Assembly (NCBI GenBank): GCA_903821905.1
Contig: CAIJMQ010000015.1
Coordinates: forward strand, 1-14,191
Length of the DNA: 14,191 nt
Source of the DNA: an uncultured bacterium
Lineage (GTDB): Bacteria > CAIJMQ01
Direction: 5' to 3'
The position numbers and the translations under genes were made by a program. Shown here in pieces: positions 4,175 to 14,191 of this stretch. The notes under the pieces were generated by a model. That model was given only the letters and a program-made list of their open reading frames with translations, did not search any database and was not told the DNA's origin. How positions within the stretch are numbered: position 1 is the first letter of the stretch; each line of letters starts with the position of its first letter.

Positions 4175-4528
4175 CTATTTGTTCTGTTTCTTCAACTCGT
4201 CATAAAATTTGAGCATTAGTCGTTTTGTCCTGTCGCCCAACAAATACTGGACTGCAAAGACTGCATGAGATGCAGCAAAGATAAGGAGCAATCCTTCAGT
4301 CGCACCAAGCATTATTCCTATGCGAACTCCAGACTCAATTGTCTCATTTAATTTGTTTATTGTTGAATCTCCTGAACCATAAACCTTCTGCCACAGTAAC
4401 CAGTATGCTAACAGAAAACCGACGGATAAACATCCAAGAAACAAAGCAAGCCATTTTGAGCGTCCTACATGTTTTCGAATAAGTTCTACGTATTCAGCAT
4501 CAGTTTTCGGTTTCGGATAGAGCTGCAT
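4175..4528 (-). CDS. Small two-helix membrane protein, function unknown
   Basis: 117-residue protein that I do not recognise. A charged N-terminal region (residues 1-24, AEYVELIRKHVGRSK) precedes a hydrophobic helix at about 25-47 (WLALFLGCLSVGFLLAYWLL). A short polar loop follows (about 48-66, GSGDSTINKLNETIESG), then a second long helix at about 67-94 (GIMLGATEGLLLIFAASHAVFAV) and a basic tail ending KFYDELKKQNK. Both termini are predicted cytoplasmic. AGGAGG (4540-4545 on the complement) gives a strong ribosome-binding site about 11 bases before the ATG. It starts 20 bases after the stop of the dual esterase gene, so the two are probably co-transcribed. A job alongside an exported polysaccharide esterase is possible, but nothing in the sequence itself shows it. 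Confidence 0.8.
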   Translation of the reverse strand: MQLYPKPKTDAEYVELIRKHVGRSKWLALFLGCLSVGFLLAYWLLWQKVYGSGDSTINKLNETIESGVRIGIMLGATEGLLLIFAASHAVFAVQYLLGDRTKRLMLKFYDELKKQNK

Positions 4529-4548
4529 ATTGGGGTATCCCTCCTATA

Positions 4549-6864
4549 TTATTTCCCCAAAATTTCTTTTTTAAGAAACGCTGTTAGTTCTTCCGCAAGT
4601 TTCGCGTGGGTGTCTACTCTTGGGTGGTTATAGCTGAATGCAGTAAATATATACGAATATAATTTGTTATCTGTGGTTTTCAATTCATCTATGGCTTTAC
4701 CAAAAGCTGCTTGCAATTCCTTTGAATCGTGATATGCGGACATCCCTCCTTCAACACAAACAATTTTAGCGTCGGGATATAAACTACGGATATTCCGCAC
4801 AAGTGGAACATATTTTTCTGTAAAATCGGAAGGGAAAGGCAAACCTTTACTTGCGGGATATCCATAATCATTTTGCCCGAGATTTATAACTACGATGTCA
4901 GGTTTTCTTCCTGAAAAATCATACCTCTTGCTTATTTTATCGGGATACAGTTTGTCGTAAACATCCGCCATAAATATGGGGTTCCAACTATAGCAAATAC
5001 CTGTCCCGCTTACAGCAATGGATATATATTCTGCATTAAGATTGCGCGCAGTAATTGAACCATAGGATAAATAATTATTGTGTGTTGAATAATCTGCGTA
5101 CTGGTCTTCAGCAGGGTCTTCATTACAAGCACCCGCAGTCATCGAATCACCAAAAAATTCAATCCGCAGCGGAAGAGGTTGTGGTTTGGAACCAAGTTTT
5201 GCATTTTTTTCAAGGATTAAACCGCAAAATGCCGATTTACTGAATATTGACTCTGTCCGCTTATATAGTATGAGTTCGTGTTGTCCTGCGGGCAAGGTTT
5301 CAGTTAGCAAATAGTCATGAGTTCCTCCTTCATTAAGCTTGAGTATGGTTATTTTCCCGTCAATGATAACATTGAAAAAATTCTGTCCTGAAGCATTCTC
5401 AAATTTAAAACCGATATTCTTACCAGAAAAATTTGCGCGAACTTCTGTCCCCTGCCAGATTAATATTGGTGCTTTTGGGTCATTAGTATCAATCCTGCCT
5501 ATGTAATACAAAGCTGAATTATCTGCAGATATAAATTGCCAGTCCTTTTCTTTAATATTGTCTATTGTAAACATTGATTTTGATGGTTGTTTGGTTGTTT
5601 GTTCAGAAACAGGTGTTGAACTTATCATTTTTGTAGAAGCAGATTCAGAGATACCCCCAATCATTATACTTACAATATCGGCTTTTTTACCGCTACCCTG
5701 AAATTTATCATTTTTCATCCTGATATGAAGAGTATGTTCACCTTCGGGCAAATCTCTGGCAATTAAATGATATGCCCAGCCAAGATATCCAGTGCGATAA
5801 GAAACATAACAGGTAAGTTCAACCGGTTTATTATCATCAACCCATGCTTCAAGATTTCTATATTGGTCACTTTCGGAATAGAAAATACCGACCATTTTTC
5901 CGCTTACTTTAAACTCAAGCAAGGCATCATCAGTTGTTGTACTCCAACCTTCCTTTGAACCGCCGTGTGCAAGCCATTCGCCATGTATATCACTCCCCAT
6001 CTGCCAACCTTTTATTGTTATTGGTTTGATATCCTTGTTGCCTAAATTTTGCGTGAACTCATAATAGTTGGAATATAAAGGTGCAGGAACAGGCAGTATT
6101 TTGGGTAGTTTTTCATCTTTTGGTAAATTTTTCCATACATTATCTAAATATTCATTAATGCATTTGGCAATAAACTCATGTCCTTTATTGTTGGGATGGA
6201 TAACCTCGCTACCATTGAAAACATCATCCCATGAAGCCAATTTTTTATCTACTTCACTTTGGAATGAATCACCGAAACTCACCATTGGAAGTCCATAATA
6301 TTTTCCGATTGGTTCCTGTTCCGATTGTTGCCCTTGTTTTAAATTTGCTTTTTGATTAAGGAATAAAAGCATAACAGCAATATCTCCTGGAGCATCCAAG
6401 ATTTGACGAAGAACGCCTTCGTAAGTCTCTTTCCTGCAGCTCGGGTCTAACCATTGGTCATTCATCGCAAACTCTACGATAACAAAATCGACTTTATTAT
6501 CAATGATTTGTTGTTTTACACGACAAGCTGCTGCAGCAGAATCAGTACCACTTACCCCTTCATTGTAATATTGTACTTTTGCATTACATTCTTTGGCTTT
6601 TGCCTGCCACCAATTATTTACAAGATTAGCCCAACCGGCGGATTGCGGCGGCACTGCTGCATAACCGGTTGTTATTGAACCTCCCATACAAGCTATGCTA
6701 ACGGTTTCTCCGCGTCTTAGCTTAGCCATCACATGTTGAAGCCGTGCGTTAGACAATGAATTCTCCTCTTTTATGTTTTGGGTTTGTTCGGACATAACCG
6801 TAATATAACTGCTCAATATGAAACAAACAATCACAACAACTGAAACTAATCCCAGTTTTTTCAT
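4549..6864 (-). CDS. Exported protein with two SGNH esterase domains; C-terminal half is CE2-like
   Basis: 771 residues, with an N-terminal signal or anchor helix (about 4-24) and no lipobox. Domain 1 (about 50-242) is an SGNH hydrolase. It has GGSIT (nucleophile Ser63), NEGVSGT (101-107), FAMND (132-136) and EVIHPNNKGH, where Glu220 and His223 stand in the DxxH position. A beta-sandwich follows (about 265-405). A Ser/Thr/Lys/Pro-rich linker spans about 407-430. A second beta-sandwich (about 433-555) precedes a second SGNH domain (566-771) with FFGDSMTAG (Ser574), VSGTG, LGQND (663-666) and NHPRVDTH (His747). The last two units match the plan of carbohydrate esterase family 2: jelly roll then SGNH. 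The Asp three residues before His747 is Ser744, so this site may use a Ser-His dyad, as described for some CE2 enzymes. Likely role: removal of acetyl or other acyl groups from polysaccharide outside the cytoplasm. AAGGAG precedes the ATG. Specificity is unknown. Confidence 0.88.
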   Translation of the reverse strand: MKKLGLVSVVVIVCFILSSYITVMSEQTQNIKEENSLSNARLQHVMAKLRRGETVSIACMGGSITTGYAAVPPQSAGWANLVNNWWQAKAKECNAKVQYYNEGVSGTDSAAAACRVKQQIIDNKVDFVIVEFAMNDQWLDPSCRKETYEGVLRQILDAPGDIAVMLLFLNQKANLKQGQQSEQEPIGKYYGLPMVSFGDSFQSEVDKKLASWDDVFNGSEVIHPNNKGHEFIAKCINEYLDNVWKNLPKDEKLPKILPVPAPLYSNYYEFTQNLGNKDIKPITIKGWQMGSDIHGEWLAHGGSKEGWSTTTDDALLEFKVSGKMVGIFYSESDQYRNLEAWVDDNKPVELTCYVSYRTGYLGWAYHLIARDLPEGEHTLHIRMKNDKFQGSGKKADIVSIMIGGISESASTKMISSTPVSEQTTKQPSKSMFTIDNIKEKDWQFISADNSALYYIGRIDTNDPKAPILIWQGTEVRANFSGKNIGFKFENASGQNFFNVIIDGKITILKLNEGGTHDYLLTETLPAGQHELILYKRTESIFSKSAFCGLILEKNAKLGSKPQPLPLRIEFFGDSMTAGACNEDPAEDQYADYSTHNNYLSYGSITARNLNAEYISIAVSGTGICYSWNPIFMADVYDKLYPDKISKRYDFSGRKPDIVVINLGQNDYGYPASKGLPFPSDFTEKYVPLVRNIRSLYPDAKIVCVEGGMSAYHDSKELQAAFGKAIDELKTTDNKLYSYIFTAFSYNHPRVDTHAKLAEELTAFLKKEILGK

Positions 6865-6932
6865 TAATTCTTCTCCTTGTGTTATATATCATAAACCAGA
6901 ATAGTACTAAGAAACAATTGCTATTTCTTCGG

Positions 6933-7766
6933 TTATATTGTCAATTTTTCATTCTTGGCTACTGACCTGATATATTCTGCAGCCAACTTATAATCGTTCT
7001 CATTACTGAGATGTTCTATTATAAGAGGCATATCATTTCCAAGCGCTGCAATTTCCTTTAAATATGTCCGATAATCAAGTTTCCCTAGCCCGGGTCTGAC
7101 TTCGTCTAAATGTACGGTAAGAGTACTTCTCAGAATTATATCTTTGGCATGACAGGATTTTATATATGGTCCAAGTTTTGAAAAGAAATCCTTCAGAAAA
7201 GTCTTATTGTTAAAATAAATTTGCGGACTGCAGATAATATTTACGGGGTCAAGATGCACTGCAAATGCTTTTCTGTCGATAGCTTTTATAAGACGCACAT
7301 AACTATCCGTAGAATCAGGATACATCCAAGGCATTGGCTCGAGAGTATAAAAAGTCCGCTTAGGATTTACGTTGTCAATAATATCCCTCACAACATCAAC
7401 AACCATCTGAAATGTTTCTTCCGAAAAGTTGGACTCTGCAGGACCATCCCACTGTTCTCCACGTGAACCGGAAATATTCACACAACAAACCGCATCAATC
7501 CTCTCTGCCAACTCCAAAGATTTTTTACAATGTTCAACCGCTTTATTACGAGTTTCTTCATCCTTGCTCAATGGATTATTCCAAGCTCCAACTTCAGCAA
7601 TAACGATATCATTTTTCTTTGCTATAGATGCATATGCCTTAATAGTCGCTTCATCGGTATCAACCGAAACAGGACAAAGAGCAGCTCTGCATCCCATTCT
7701 CTTTATGATATCCACCCAAGATTTTGGGTCAGTATACTTACTAAAAACCTGTCCGCCGAGTCTCAT
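6933..7766 (-). CDS. Sugar phosphate isomerase/epimerase-like TIM barrel (xylose isomerase-like)
   Basis: 277-residue soluble protein of the AP-endonuclease-2 / xylose-isomerase-like superfamily, which includes hydroxypyruvate isomerase, tagatose-3-epimerase, inosose dehydratase and similar sugar enzymes. The barrel begins MRLGGQVFSKY. The divalent-metal ligands expected for the family are visible: Glu143 (TLEPMPWMYPD), Asp173 (VHLDPVN), His206 (SCHAKDI) and Glu251 (IIEHLS). Glu58 lies in IAEVGAW, and PGLGKLDYRTYL (225-236) is the usual family signature. The substrate cannot be read from the sequence. It is the first gene of a probable three-gene minus-strand unit, 68 bases ahead of the dual esterase, which suggests one sugar-related pathway. 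No Shine-Dalgarno precedes the ATG. The upstream bases are almost pure A/T, with a TATAAA 8 bases before the start. Confidence 0.87.
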   Translation of the reverse strand: MRLGGQVFSKYTDPKSWVDIIKRMGCRAALCPVSVDTDEATIKAYASIAKKNDIVIAEVGAWNNPLSKDEETRNKAVEHCKKSLELAERIDAVCCVNISGSRGEQWDGPAESNFSEETFQMVVDVVRDIIDNVNPKRTFYTLEPMPWMYPDSTDSYVRLIKAIDRKAFAVHLDPVNIICSPQIYFNNKTFLKDFFSKLGPYIKSCHAKDIILRSTLTVHLDEVRPGLGKLDYRTYLKEIAALGNDMPLIIEHLSNENDYKLAAEYIRSVAKNEKLTI

Positions 7767-10673: not shown

Positions 10674-12002
10674 TTAAACAATTTTTCTATTCAGGGAAGA
10701 AACATAGTCTCTTAACGCTTTTATTCTTTTAAGAGAAAAGTCGTCCTGTATCAGCGAAAAAATAGTATCATTATGCCATAGTGGGTCTAAGTCACTATTT
10801 ATTATTCCTTCTTTTTTCAACATCTTCTCATCTATTGTATTGGGGACAAGCGAATATGTTACAAGAGTGATATGAACTTTAAGATTATGCAAGAATTCAA
10901 TGCCATCTCTCACTTCTTTTTCATCCTGATGTGGCATACCAACCATGAGATATACTCCAATTTCTTTACCGCTGTAGCCAACGCTTTTTAAATTCTCCAC
11001 TGCTGTCTTGAATTCTTCGGTGGTAACTTTGCCACCTGTGTTTCTCTGGCGCAAAGGATTGACCGTTTCAAAAGATAACGTTACAGTTTTGAAATTTGCT
11101 TCCTTGAGTTTCTTAGCTAATTTCTTATCTATAAACCTTACGTGTAAACCGTTAGGCGTATGGAAATTAACGCTTATGCCCTTTTTCAAAACCCCATCCA
11201 GAATAGGGATGATATGCTTGTCAGCATTGACCAGCAGAGCATCGTCATAAAAAGCAATATCTTTTACTTTATAATTTTCCCGGTAAAATTCGATTTCATC
11301 AACAATTTCTTCCGGATTTCTTTGGATAAAACGCTTATTAAACAGCTTAGAACCGCAATAAGAACAATTAAAAGGACATCCTTTGGAAGTTTCTATGACC
11401 AATGATGAAGTATCGGAAAGGAGACTGTAGTCAGGATAAATATAGCATTCTGGAAATTTGATATCTTTCCCCAAGATTAATGACAACTGCAAACAAACCG
11501 AAGGTAAATCACTGCCTGTTACAACATAATCTATTCCTTCTAAACTTTTTACATGTTCGGGAAGCAAAGTAGCATATATACCACCCAGGACAATCGGAAC
11601 ATCGGGAAACCTTTTCTTTAAAAACCTTGCAGTGTATTCTAATCCAGGATACCAGTATGTCATTCCCGAAGTCATGAGAATAAAGTCGGGCTTAGGAACA
11701 TTTTTTACTTCCTTCAGAGCAATCTCTTCCGGCAAGCCGTAAATAGAATAAGGGCGCTCGACATCTTTTATCGGTTCCGGTTTTTGTATATGTCTTTTAT
11801 AAAATTTACCACACCCGAAATCATCATTCTTTACCAGTTTTTTTATTTTAGGATGGTAACGGTTCAGAAAATCAATATATGAGATGTTATACCTATTAGC
11901 TTTAAGCAGAGAAGCTATCCGCAACAGCCCAAAAGGCCTCATCCATAAATCATAAGCCGCAAAATCACATATCCAGGGATTAATTAAAAGAATGTTATTC
12001 AT
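10674..12002 (-). CDS. B12-binding-type radical SAM protein (uncharacterised)
   Basis: 442 residues with the layout of cobalamin-binding-domain radical SAM enzymes. An N-terminal Rossmann-like part (about 1-180) opens with ILLINPW and contains PDFILMTSGMTYW and the family loop IVLGGIYATLLPEH (137-150). The DxHxxG cobalamin-ligating motif is not visible, so base-off cobalamin binding is doubtful. The radical SAM core starts at SKGCPFNCSYCGSK, with Cys199, Cys203 and Cys206 as the 4Fe-4S ligands. FYDDALLVN, LSFETVNPLRQRNTGG and YLMVGMPHQDEKEV are barrel motifs also seen in B12-rSAM proteins. Such enzymes carry out methylations, thioether or C-C bond chemistry on lipids, cofactors and peptides. 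The substrate here is unknown. It is divergent from the rdgB-trpF fusion and followed by a TPR gene. No Shine-Dalgarno precedes the ATG. Confidence 0.86.
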   Translation of the reverse strand: MNNILLINPWICDFAAYDLWMRPFGLLRIASLLKANRYNISYIDFLNRYHPKIKKLVKNDDFGCGKFYKRHIQKPEPIKDVERPYSIYGLPEEIALKEVKNVPKPDFILMTSGMTYWYPGLEYTARFLKKRFPDVPIVLGGIYATLLPEHVKSLEGIDYVVTGSDLPSVCLQLSLILGKDIKFPECYIYPDYSLLSDTSSLVIETSKGCPFNCSYCGSKLFNKRFIQRNPEEIVDEIEFYRENYKVKDIAFYDDALLVNADKHIIPILDGVLKKGISVNFHTPNGLHVRFIDKKLAKKLKEANFKTVTLSFETVNPLRQRNTGGKVTTEEFKTAVENLKSVGYSGKEIGVYLMVGMPHQDEKEVRDGIEFLHNLKVHITLVTYSLVPNTIDEKMLKKEGIINSDLDPLWHNDTIFSLIQDDFSLKRIKALRDYVSSLNRKIV

Positions 12003-12057: not shown

Positions 12058-13269
12058 ATGGAAATTGTTCTGGCTACTCAAAACAAAGATAAGATAAAAG
12101 AGATTAGGGAAATCCTAAAAGGTATTTCCGTTAAACTCATAACTTTCCAGGAACACTCGCGCGAACTCTCGGTTAAAGAAGATGGAAAAACATTGGAAGA
12201 AAACGCAATAAAGAAAGCTGAAGTGTGGATGAAAGAGACCGGGAAACCTGCTTTAGCCGATGATTCAGGGCTTGAAGTAGATTATCTAACCGGAGCACCT
12301 GGAGTATACTCGTCTCGTTTTGCAGGAGAGGATGTAACCTATGCCGACAACAACGCAAAATTACTAAAGATAATGAATGGTGTTCCAGAAGAAAAAAGAA
12401 CAGCACGGTTCAGATGTATTGCTGCTTTAGTCTTTCCCGACGGAAGAAAAGAAGTTTTTCAGGGGATAATAGAAGGAATAATAATAACCGCTCCTCGCGG
12501 TAAATCGGGTTTCGGCTATGACCCCGTGTTTCTAGTCCCGGAATACAACAAAACATTGGCAGAACTTAGAGACGAGATAAAAAACAAGATTTCACACAGA
12601 GCAGTAGCATTCAAGAAAGTAAGAGAATACCTTTCGCAAGACAAGAAAACAACTAAAATAAAAGTTTGCGGTATAACAAATAGAGAAGACGCTTTTCTTG
12701 CTTTATCACTTGGAGTTGATGCGGTTGGTTTCATATTTGCCGAAAGCAAGAGAAGAATAACTGCAGTAGAAGCCTGTAAAATTATTGATGCACTCCCGCA
12801 AACTATCCTAAAAGTAGGCGTATTTGTCAACGAAGAAGAAAAAAGAGTAAGACAGATACTTGAACTCTGTCATCTTAATATGCTCCAATTCCACGGTGAG
12901 GAATCACCGGAATATATATTGAAATTCCGAGAAAAAACAATCAAATCTTTCAGAATAGAAGATGAAGATTCTTTGAAGAACATTCCTAACTATAAAGCGA
13001 GCGCATATCTTCTGGATACATATTCGGAAGAAACATATGGAGGCACAGGTAAAACTTTTAATTGGGATTTGGCAGTGGAAGCCAAAAAATTCGGCCCGAT
13101 ATTTTTGGCAGGCGGTTTAAACCTGGATAATGTTGAAGAAGCAATCCGGAAAGTAGAACCCTACGCAGTAGATGTCTCTTCAGGCGTCGAATCCTATCCC
13201 GGCAAAAAAGACCCCAAGAAGTTAGAGGAGTTTGTGAGAAGGGTGAGGGGAATTTCAAACGCAGATTAA
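12058..13269 (+). CDS. RdgB-TrpF fusion: dITP/XTP pyrophosphatase plus phosphoribosylanthranilate isomerase
   Basis: One 403-residue frame joins two complete enzymes. Residues 1-192 are RdgB/HAM1, which hydrolyses non-canonical purine triphosphates (XTP, dITP) to monophosphates. Its motifs are ATQNKDK (6-12), ADDSGLEVDYL with catalytic Asp69, PGVYSSRFAG (81-90), GFGYDPVF (151-158) and KNKISHR. Residues about 200-400 are TrpF, which converts N-(5'-phosphoribosyl)anthranilate to CdRP in tryptophan synthesis. Its motifs are KVCGIT (Cys204, general base), VGVFVNE, LQFHGEE, LLDTY (Asp320, general acid), GGTGKTFNWD, AGGLN and VDVSSGVE. The linker SQDKKTTK is short and no ATG, GTG or TTG precedes the TrpF part, so it cannot be made alone from a standard start. 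Both active sites are intact. No other trp gene is in view. The promoter lies immediately upstream. Confidence 0.95.
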   Translation: MEIVLATQNKDKIKEIREILKGISVKLITFQEHSRELSVKEDGKTLEENAIKKAEVWMKETGKPALADDSGLEVDYLTGAPGVYSSRFAGEDVTYADNNAKLLKIMNGVPEEKRTARFRCIAALVFPDGRKEVFQGIIEGIIITAPRGKSGFGYDPVFLVPEYNKTLAELRDEIKNKISHRAVAFKKVREYLSQDKKTTKIKVCGITNREDAFLALSLGVDAVGFIFAESKRRITAVEACKIIDALPQTILKVGVFVNEEEKRVRQILELCHLNMLQFHGEESPEYILKFREKTIKSFRIEDEDSLKNIPNYKASAYLLDTYSEETYGGTGKTFNWDLAVEAKKFGPIFLAGGLNLDNVEEAIRKVEPYAVDVSSGVESYPGKKDPKKLEEFVRRVRGISNAD

Positions 13270-13282
13270 AGCAGGATAGCTA

Positions 13283-13519
13283 CTACTCCTTAAAAATTTG
13301 TGTTTTACCTTTATACTCCCGCAAAAAACTTGTTTTGGAATCTTCCCAGACACCTTTGTTTGGATTACTTAACAACGTAGCAATTACAATCCCCTCCAAT
13401 AGGTCATTGAATTTCTGTTGCTGTTCTTTATACATTATGTAATTTCGCCATGTTAATATACCAATAACAAAGGTAGCAAATGCAGAAACCGCTGCGGATA
13501 TTCCTATAACAATACTCAT
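13283..13519 (-). CDS. Small single-helix membrane protein, function unknown
   Basis: 78-residue protein that I do not recognise. One N-terminal hydrophobic helix (about residues 3-24, IVIGISAAVSAFATFVIGILTW) is followed by a basic/aromatic juxtamembrane stretch (RNYIMYKEQQQKF) and a soluble tail of about 45 residues ending YKGKTQIFKE. The topology is probably N-out/C-in, with the tail in the cytoplasm. AAGGAG lies about 7 bases before the ATG. It is convergent with the rdgB-trpF fusion, with 13 bases between stops. It follows the 211-residue membrane protein gene by 32 bases on the same strand, so the two may be co-expressed. Confidence 0.7.
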   Translation of the reverse strand: MSIVIGISAAVSAFATFVIGILTWRNYIMYKEQQQKFNDLLEGIVIATLLSNPNKGVWEDSKTSFLREYKGKTQIFKE

Positions 13520-13551
13520 TATTTTTCTCCTTCTTTTATGTTACTTTAAAT

Positions 13552-14187
13552 TTATATCAAAGTATTAGCCGGTGTGGGGTCGTTTTCTTTGATTCTTTTT
13601 CTGCAAATCTCTTCAACTACAAATGTATTAGGTATCCCACAAATATAAATTACATCCGGGACATATTGGTCCGGTGCATTTTTTCTACTGACCATTCTAC
13701 CGGTTCTCATTTGTAAGGAAATGTTTCCTTTCTCGGGATTACTGCTAACTTCGATATCTCCCGAGAACTGTTCCCAATCAATAGACCTTACATTGTTTTT
13801 CTTATAGATAATCAATCTTTTGGCAGTACCGATATACCAGCCACCTTTAGCAAGTAAAGAATAAATACCGTAGATAATCATACCAAGCCCGACTAAAACA
13901 AATATACCCATTACTAAAACTGGAATAAGCAAGGGTTTTAAATTCCCTGGGCTTACTACAGTAGGAACATTATTGACGGTAAGATGTATTTCTTTCCCGG
14001 AAAATATCGGCCCCAAAAAAGCAAAAAACAATACACCACCAGTACAACCCAACCAAATTAGACCGAATATTAAAGACGGTAATGAGGTTTTAAGTGGAAA
14101 GCTGCGTTTTGCTTTTACAATGAAGTCCTGAGATTCTCCACCGAGTATGGTATTTATCTCGGAAGGAACGTTTTCTTGAGATATCAT
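13552..14187 (-). CDS. Two-helix membrane protein, possibly with a bacterial PH-like domain
   Basis: 211 residues. A soluble N-terminal segment (1-34) precedes a hydrophobic helix at about 37-60 (LIFGLIWLGCTGGVLFFAFLG). A polar, probably external loop follows (about 61-84), then a second helix at about 85-113 (LLIPVLVMGIFVLVGLGMIIYGI). The cytoplasmic C-terminal part begins GGWYIGTAKRLIIYKK (about 115-130) and continues with strand-like IDWEQFSGDIEV. The W-Y-x-x-T-x-x-R-L-I pattern after two helices resembles bacterial PH-like membrane proteins (bPH families), but the match is by eye only. The start ATG lies 4 bases from the window edge, so its promoter and ribosome-binding site are not visible, and an earlier start cannot be excluded. 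Confidence 0.7.
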   Translation of the reverse strand: MISQENVPSEINTILGGESQDFIVKAKRSFPLKTSLPSLIFGLIWLGCTGGVLFFAFLGPIFSGKEIHLTVNNVPTVVSPGNLKPLLIPVLVMGIFVLVGLGMIIYGIYSLLAKGGWYIGTAKRLIIYKKNNVRSIDWEQFSGDIEVSSNPEKGNISLQMRTGRMVSRKNAPDQYVPDVIYICGIPNTFVVEEICRKRIKENDPTPANTLI

Positions 14188-14191
14188 ATTA

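Follow-up and report, generated by a model that had tools for sequence, protein, structure and literature searches.

A predicted RdgB-TrpF fusion protein, probably formed from neighbouring genes, in an uncultured bacterium

In the draft genome of an uncultured bacterium we found rdgB and trpF joined in one reading frame. Very probably this frame specifies a single polypeptide that carries two independent enzymes, RdgB and TrpF, and that arose by fusion of neighbouring genes; the protein is presumed to be bifunctional. The fusion looks real, and it is probably recent and mechanistically ordinary. RdgB hydrolyses XTP, dITP and ITP and has a role in nucleotide clean-up, and TrpF isomerises phosphoribosylanthranilate, one step of tryptophan synthesis.

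Results

The DNA analysed here (the window) makes up an entire contig, 14,191 nucleotides long, belonging to a draft genome of 1.30 Mb in 121 contigs, 84% complete. A single uninterrupted open reading frame runs on the plus strand from an ATG at 12058 to a stop codon ending at 13269 and encodes 403 amino acids. The features of the locus are as follows.

10674..12002, minus strand: divergent B12-binding radical SAM gene, the upstream bound of the rdgB-trpF unit, kept in family members
12058..13269, plus strand: rdgB-trpF fused reading frame, 403 amino acids (open reading frame, Pfam and NCBIfam)
12058..12636, plus strand: RdgB/HAM1 XTP/dITP diphosphatase domain, residues 1-193 (PF01725 over residues 3-191; PDB 3tqu, 1k7k and 2pyu by sequence and fold)
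12634..12654, plus strand: joint, residues 193-199, SQDKKTT (comparison with relatives; block 191-200 has a mean pLDDT of 69)
12655..13266, plus strand: TrpF/PRAI phosphoribosylanthranilate isomerase domain, residues 200-403 (PF00697 over residues 202-394; PDB 1nsj and 1lbm)

The N-terminal half matches the Pfam family Ham1p_like (PF01725) at residues 3-191, covering model positions 1-186 of 186 (E-value 3e-66, 223 bits against a cut-off of 22.5), and scores above the cut-off of the NCBIfam equivalog for XTP/dITP diphosphatase (NF011397). It matches HAM1 structures from E. coli, Coxiella and Staphylococcus, and the conserved motifs DDSG (position 68), GFGYDP (151) and SHR (179) are present. 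DDSG and SHR have aligned counterparts in E. coli RdgB (1k7k), and the motifs were also aligned with 3tqu. The catalytic Asp69, which the initial annotation had called intact, lies within DDSG. This half is thus predicted to be an RdgB/HAM1 non-canonical purine NTP pyrophosphatase hydrolysing XTP and dITP.

The C-terminal half matches PRAI (PF00697) at residues 202-394, covering model positions 2-192 of 193 (E-value 3.9e-42, 145 bits against a cut-off of 22.7), exceeds the cut-off of the NCBIfam equivalog for phosphoribosylanthranilate isomerase (NF002298) and matches the Thermotoga maritima TrpF structures. The catalytic residues Cys204 and Asp320, likewise reported as intact, were found in the motifs CGIT and LLDT, which align with CGIT and LLDT of the T. 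maritima enzyme (1lbm/1nsj). Domain and catalytic residues together predict a TrpF phosphoribosylanthranilate isomerase. The protein does not fall among the known bifunctional TrpC-TrpF or TrpF-TrpB enzymes: the NCBIfam models NF006945 and NF010376 scored far below their cut-offs, and the partner of TrpF here is RdgB and no trp enzyme.

The in-frame fusion proposed at the outset is therefore borne out by one frame of 403 codons in which both domains score well above curated cut-offs, and since both are full-length, chance is no explanation for it. The last RdgB helix ends at residue 194 and the first TrpF strand starts at residue 200, giving a joint of 5-8 residues, in line with the estimate of about 8. 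As the annotation had it, TrpF has no standard start of its own: no in-frame ATG, GTG or TTG occurs between residues 167 and 275, a stretch that includes the ~90 nucleotides before TrpF strand 1. Near the junction, the other two frames contain stops and no usable start just upstream of TrpF. An in-frame ATA is present at 12658, from which TrpF might also, or instead, be made separately, as it might by internal processing of the fusion. This is extremely improbable: ATA is a very rare start in bacteria, initiation here would cut into TrpF strand 1, the sequence before the ATA (GACAAGAAAACAACTAAA) has no clear Shine-Dalgarno stretch, and the trpF starts of relatives are ATG codons.

We compared the locus with those of relatives. 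In the three other members of the family (G001, G002 and G003) rdgB and trpF are adjacent and co-directional but are separate genes in different frames, and trpF starts with ATG. Between the stop of rdgB and the start of trpF lie 22 or 31 nucleotides in G001, 157 in G002 and 113 in G003. The window shares with all three the gene order rpsP-trmD-rplS-rnhB-yraN-rSAM-TPR-B12rSAM-rdgB-trpF. The joint of the fusion replaces the RdgB tail, the stop codon, the 22-157 nucleotide spacer and the trpF ATG of these relatives; where trpF begins ATG-ACT-AAA in G002 and ATG-GTT-AAA in G003, the matching codons of the fusion genome read ACA-ACT-AAA. In a sister family (G004-G006), rdgB and trpF stand on different contigs where both were found, and trpF lies among the trp genes, between trpC and trpB; G006 has a complete trpEGDCFBA.

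The suggestion of a frozen operon fusion receives direct support from the family members, which keep the two genes adjacent and separate. On this comparison of gene order, trpF would first have left the trp operon, then settled behind rdgB in the family ancestor, and in the fusion genome the spacer, the rdgB stop and the trpF ATG would have been lost in frame. Separate genes in all relatives, which had been named as grounds against a fusion, are indeed what every relative compared displays, yet they do not undo the fusion, since this genome lacks the spacer and the start codon alike. They place it instead, as far as can be seen, in this genome or genus alone.

That all relatives have separate genes, and that the fusion is seen in a single draft genome of 121 contigs, would also be expected of an assembly or base-calling artefact, in which the spacer had partly collapsed or an indel had removed the stop between genes that are really separate. 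We consider an artefact quite unlikely. About 900 bp of sequence separate the fusion from the contig end and its surroundings agree with those of three relatives, a one-base error cannot explain the missing spacer and start codon, and a spacer collapse exactly in frame needs a coincidence. We infer that the junction is free of assembly error.

The window also differs from its relatives in gene content. Between rplS and rnhB (4175-7766) it carries three minus-strand genes, namely a small ORF, a 771-amino-acid GDSL/CE2 esterase and a xylose-isomerase-like TIM barrel, with no match at the same place in G001-G003, whose rplS and rnhB stand closer. Downstream of the fusion (13283-14190) are two minus-strand ORFs with no Pfam or NCBIfam match and no match in the compared downstream regions of the relatives. 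A search of the window against Rfam returned no trp leader, T-box or other known RNA, and pattern scans for promoters and terminators yielded roughly what shuffled sequence did.

The initial annotation had advised a check for a second trpF or rdgB. Searches of the 84%-complete draft by protein and by Pfam model detected one PRAI domain and one Ham1p_like domain, both in the fusion, which thus holds the sole copies found. A different contig carries trpB and trpA; trpE and trpC were not found in this draft. In the relative G002, genes for a Nudix protein and an M16 peptidase precede trpE-trpG-(PC4-like gene)-trpD-trpC. The fusion genome has the M16-Nudix pair on a 3-kb contig (C120) that breaks off within the Nudix gene, beside the usual place of trpE, so the simplest account of the missing trpEGDC block is a gap in the assembly. 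We therefore do not favour an orphan TrpF left by loss of the remaining trp pathway. The idea of an orphan trpF holds in one respect: trpF stands outside the trp operon in this family and inside it in the sister family. The further proposal that TrpF has another role here found no support, given that no other TrpF was found, that trpB and trpA are present, and that the missing trpEGDC genes fall at a contig end.

Two side observations concern these trp-linked contigs. In C120 the match to the Nudix gene breaks off 125 bases short of the contig end (L068:1-125), possibly a chimeric end or a truncated gene. The PC4/p15-like gene inside the G002 trp cluster (L055:4340-8488), between trpG and trpD, encodes 93 amino acids (PF02229) and occurs also in G001 (L060).

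To describe selection on the two halves we calculated pairwise dN/dS between the fusion genome and the family members, which was 0.07-0.09 for RdgB and 0.12-0.20 for TrpF; dN of both halves lies in the range seen between relatives of similar distance. Both halves look constrained, although the nearest relatives stand at such a distance (dS about 0.6-1.5) that a large part of this purifying selection may be older than the fusion. An AlphaFold model of the fusion, built from 16 sequences, contains two well-predicted domains (mean pLDDT 88) with a weaker joint at residues 191-200 (mean pLDDT 69). The pTM of 0.54 gives no confident interdomain packing, and we read the model as two independent folds on a flexible joint.

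Discussion

The RdgB-TrpF protein would be translated as one chain in which each domain folds and works alone, as when separate. The fusion would be neutral or nearly so, with fixed 1:1 expression as its sole effect, and no metabolite would be passed between the domains. The initial annotation saw no obvious pathway link between the two enzymes, and our analysis likewise lends none any support.

The pairing was new to that annotation, and it remained single in our searches. Among the matches listed from 386 diverse genomes, 7 of its phylum, 17 of a nearby phylum and plasmids there was no other RdgB-TrpF fusion, nor was one met when genome contigs were scanned by peptide patterns, a scan that reaches close relatives only. 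One of the match lists was cut short, but a fusion would have stood among its first entries. These ~400 other genomes are a fraction of those known, so other cases may exist. We found no paper on an RdgB-TrpF or an RdgB-CoaE fusion.

Although this pairing is new, there is precedent for TrpF joining the product of an unrelated neighbour. In a Sargasso Sea contig, TrpF is fused to TruA, truA being a usual neighbour of trpF (Kagan et al. 2008, PMC2395257). As here, TrpF merged with the unrelated enzyme of a habitual neighbour gene; the partner there is a tRNA pseudouridine synthase, and the fusion was reported as F-TruA (PMC2395257). TrpC-TrpF and TrpF-TrpB fusions are known as well, the latter in archaea and bacteria (PMC11237513). 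TrpC-TrpF of E. coli (PDB 1pii) resembles our protein in carrying TrpF as the C-terminal of two enzymes on one chain, but its halves catalyse successive reactions of a single pathway. TrpF-TrpB (NF010376) also joins TrpF to another enzyme, but there the partner belongs to the pathway and TrpF is N-terminal.

A closer parallel lies on the RdgB side. A nearby phylum, that of G033, includes eight genomes (G180, G390-G394, G396 and G398) in which the RdgB C-terminus is fused to dephospho-CoA kinase, CoaE (loci L069-L076, for example L071:1296-2477, plus strand). Two genomes of the same phylum (G316 and G397) have rdgB and coaE as separate neighbours (L080 and L081), suggesting the same route, adjacent and then fused. 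In both fusions RdgB is N-terminal, the joint is short and the partner is the gene downstream of rdgB in relatives; RdgB-CoaE differs in its partner and in being kept across several genera, and is arguably the more interesting of the two.

The adjacency of rdgB and trpF in all four family members means that some linkage has persisted, and could be taken as a sign that the fusion was selected for mutual benefit, for example co-regulated nucleotide sanitation and PRPP-consuming tryptophan synthesis. We find this highly doubtful, since the enzymes share no metabolite or known pathway link, the model predicts no confident domain packing, RdgB also fuses to the unrelated CoaE in the nearby phylum, and the fusion itself is not conserved. 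Equally little credence goes to an undescribed bifunctional enzyme whose joining is beneficial, through coupled expression or reciprocal stabilisation, in a lineage with RdgB as a repeated N-terminal fusion partner. RdgB has merged on more than one occasion with the gene behind it, and the partners differ. A tolerant C-terminus and closely spaced genes account for this better than functional coupling would, and the CoaE case suggests that this end of RdgB accepts fusion to whichever gene follows.

Two independent enzymes merged from neighbouring genes carry a warning against Rosetta-stone logic, by which functional links are drawn from domain fusions, because the partner of RdgB varies with the downstream gene, TrpF here and CoaE in the nearby phylum. 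The steps of the fusion are preserved in living relatives, with trpF in its pathway operon, then behind an unrelated neighbour and finally merged with it.
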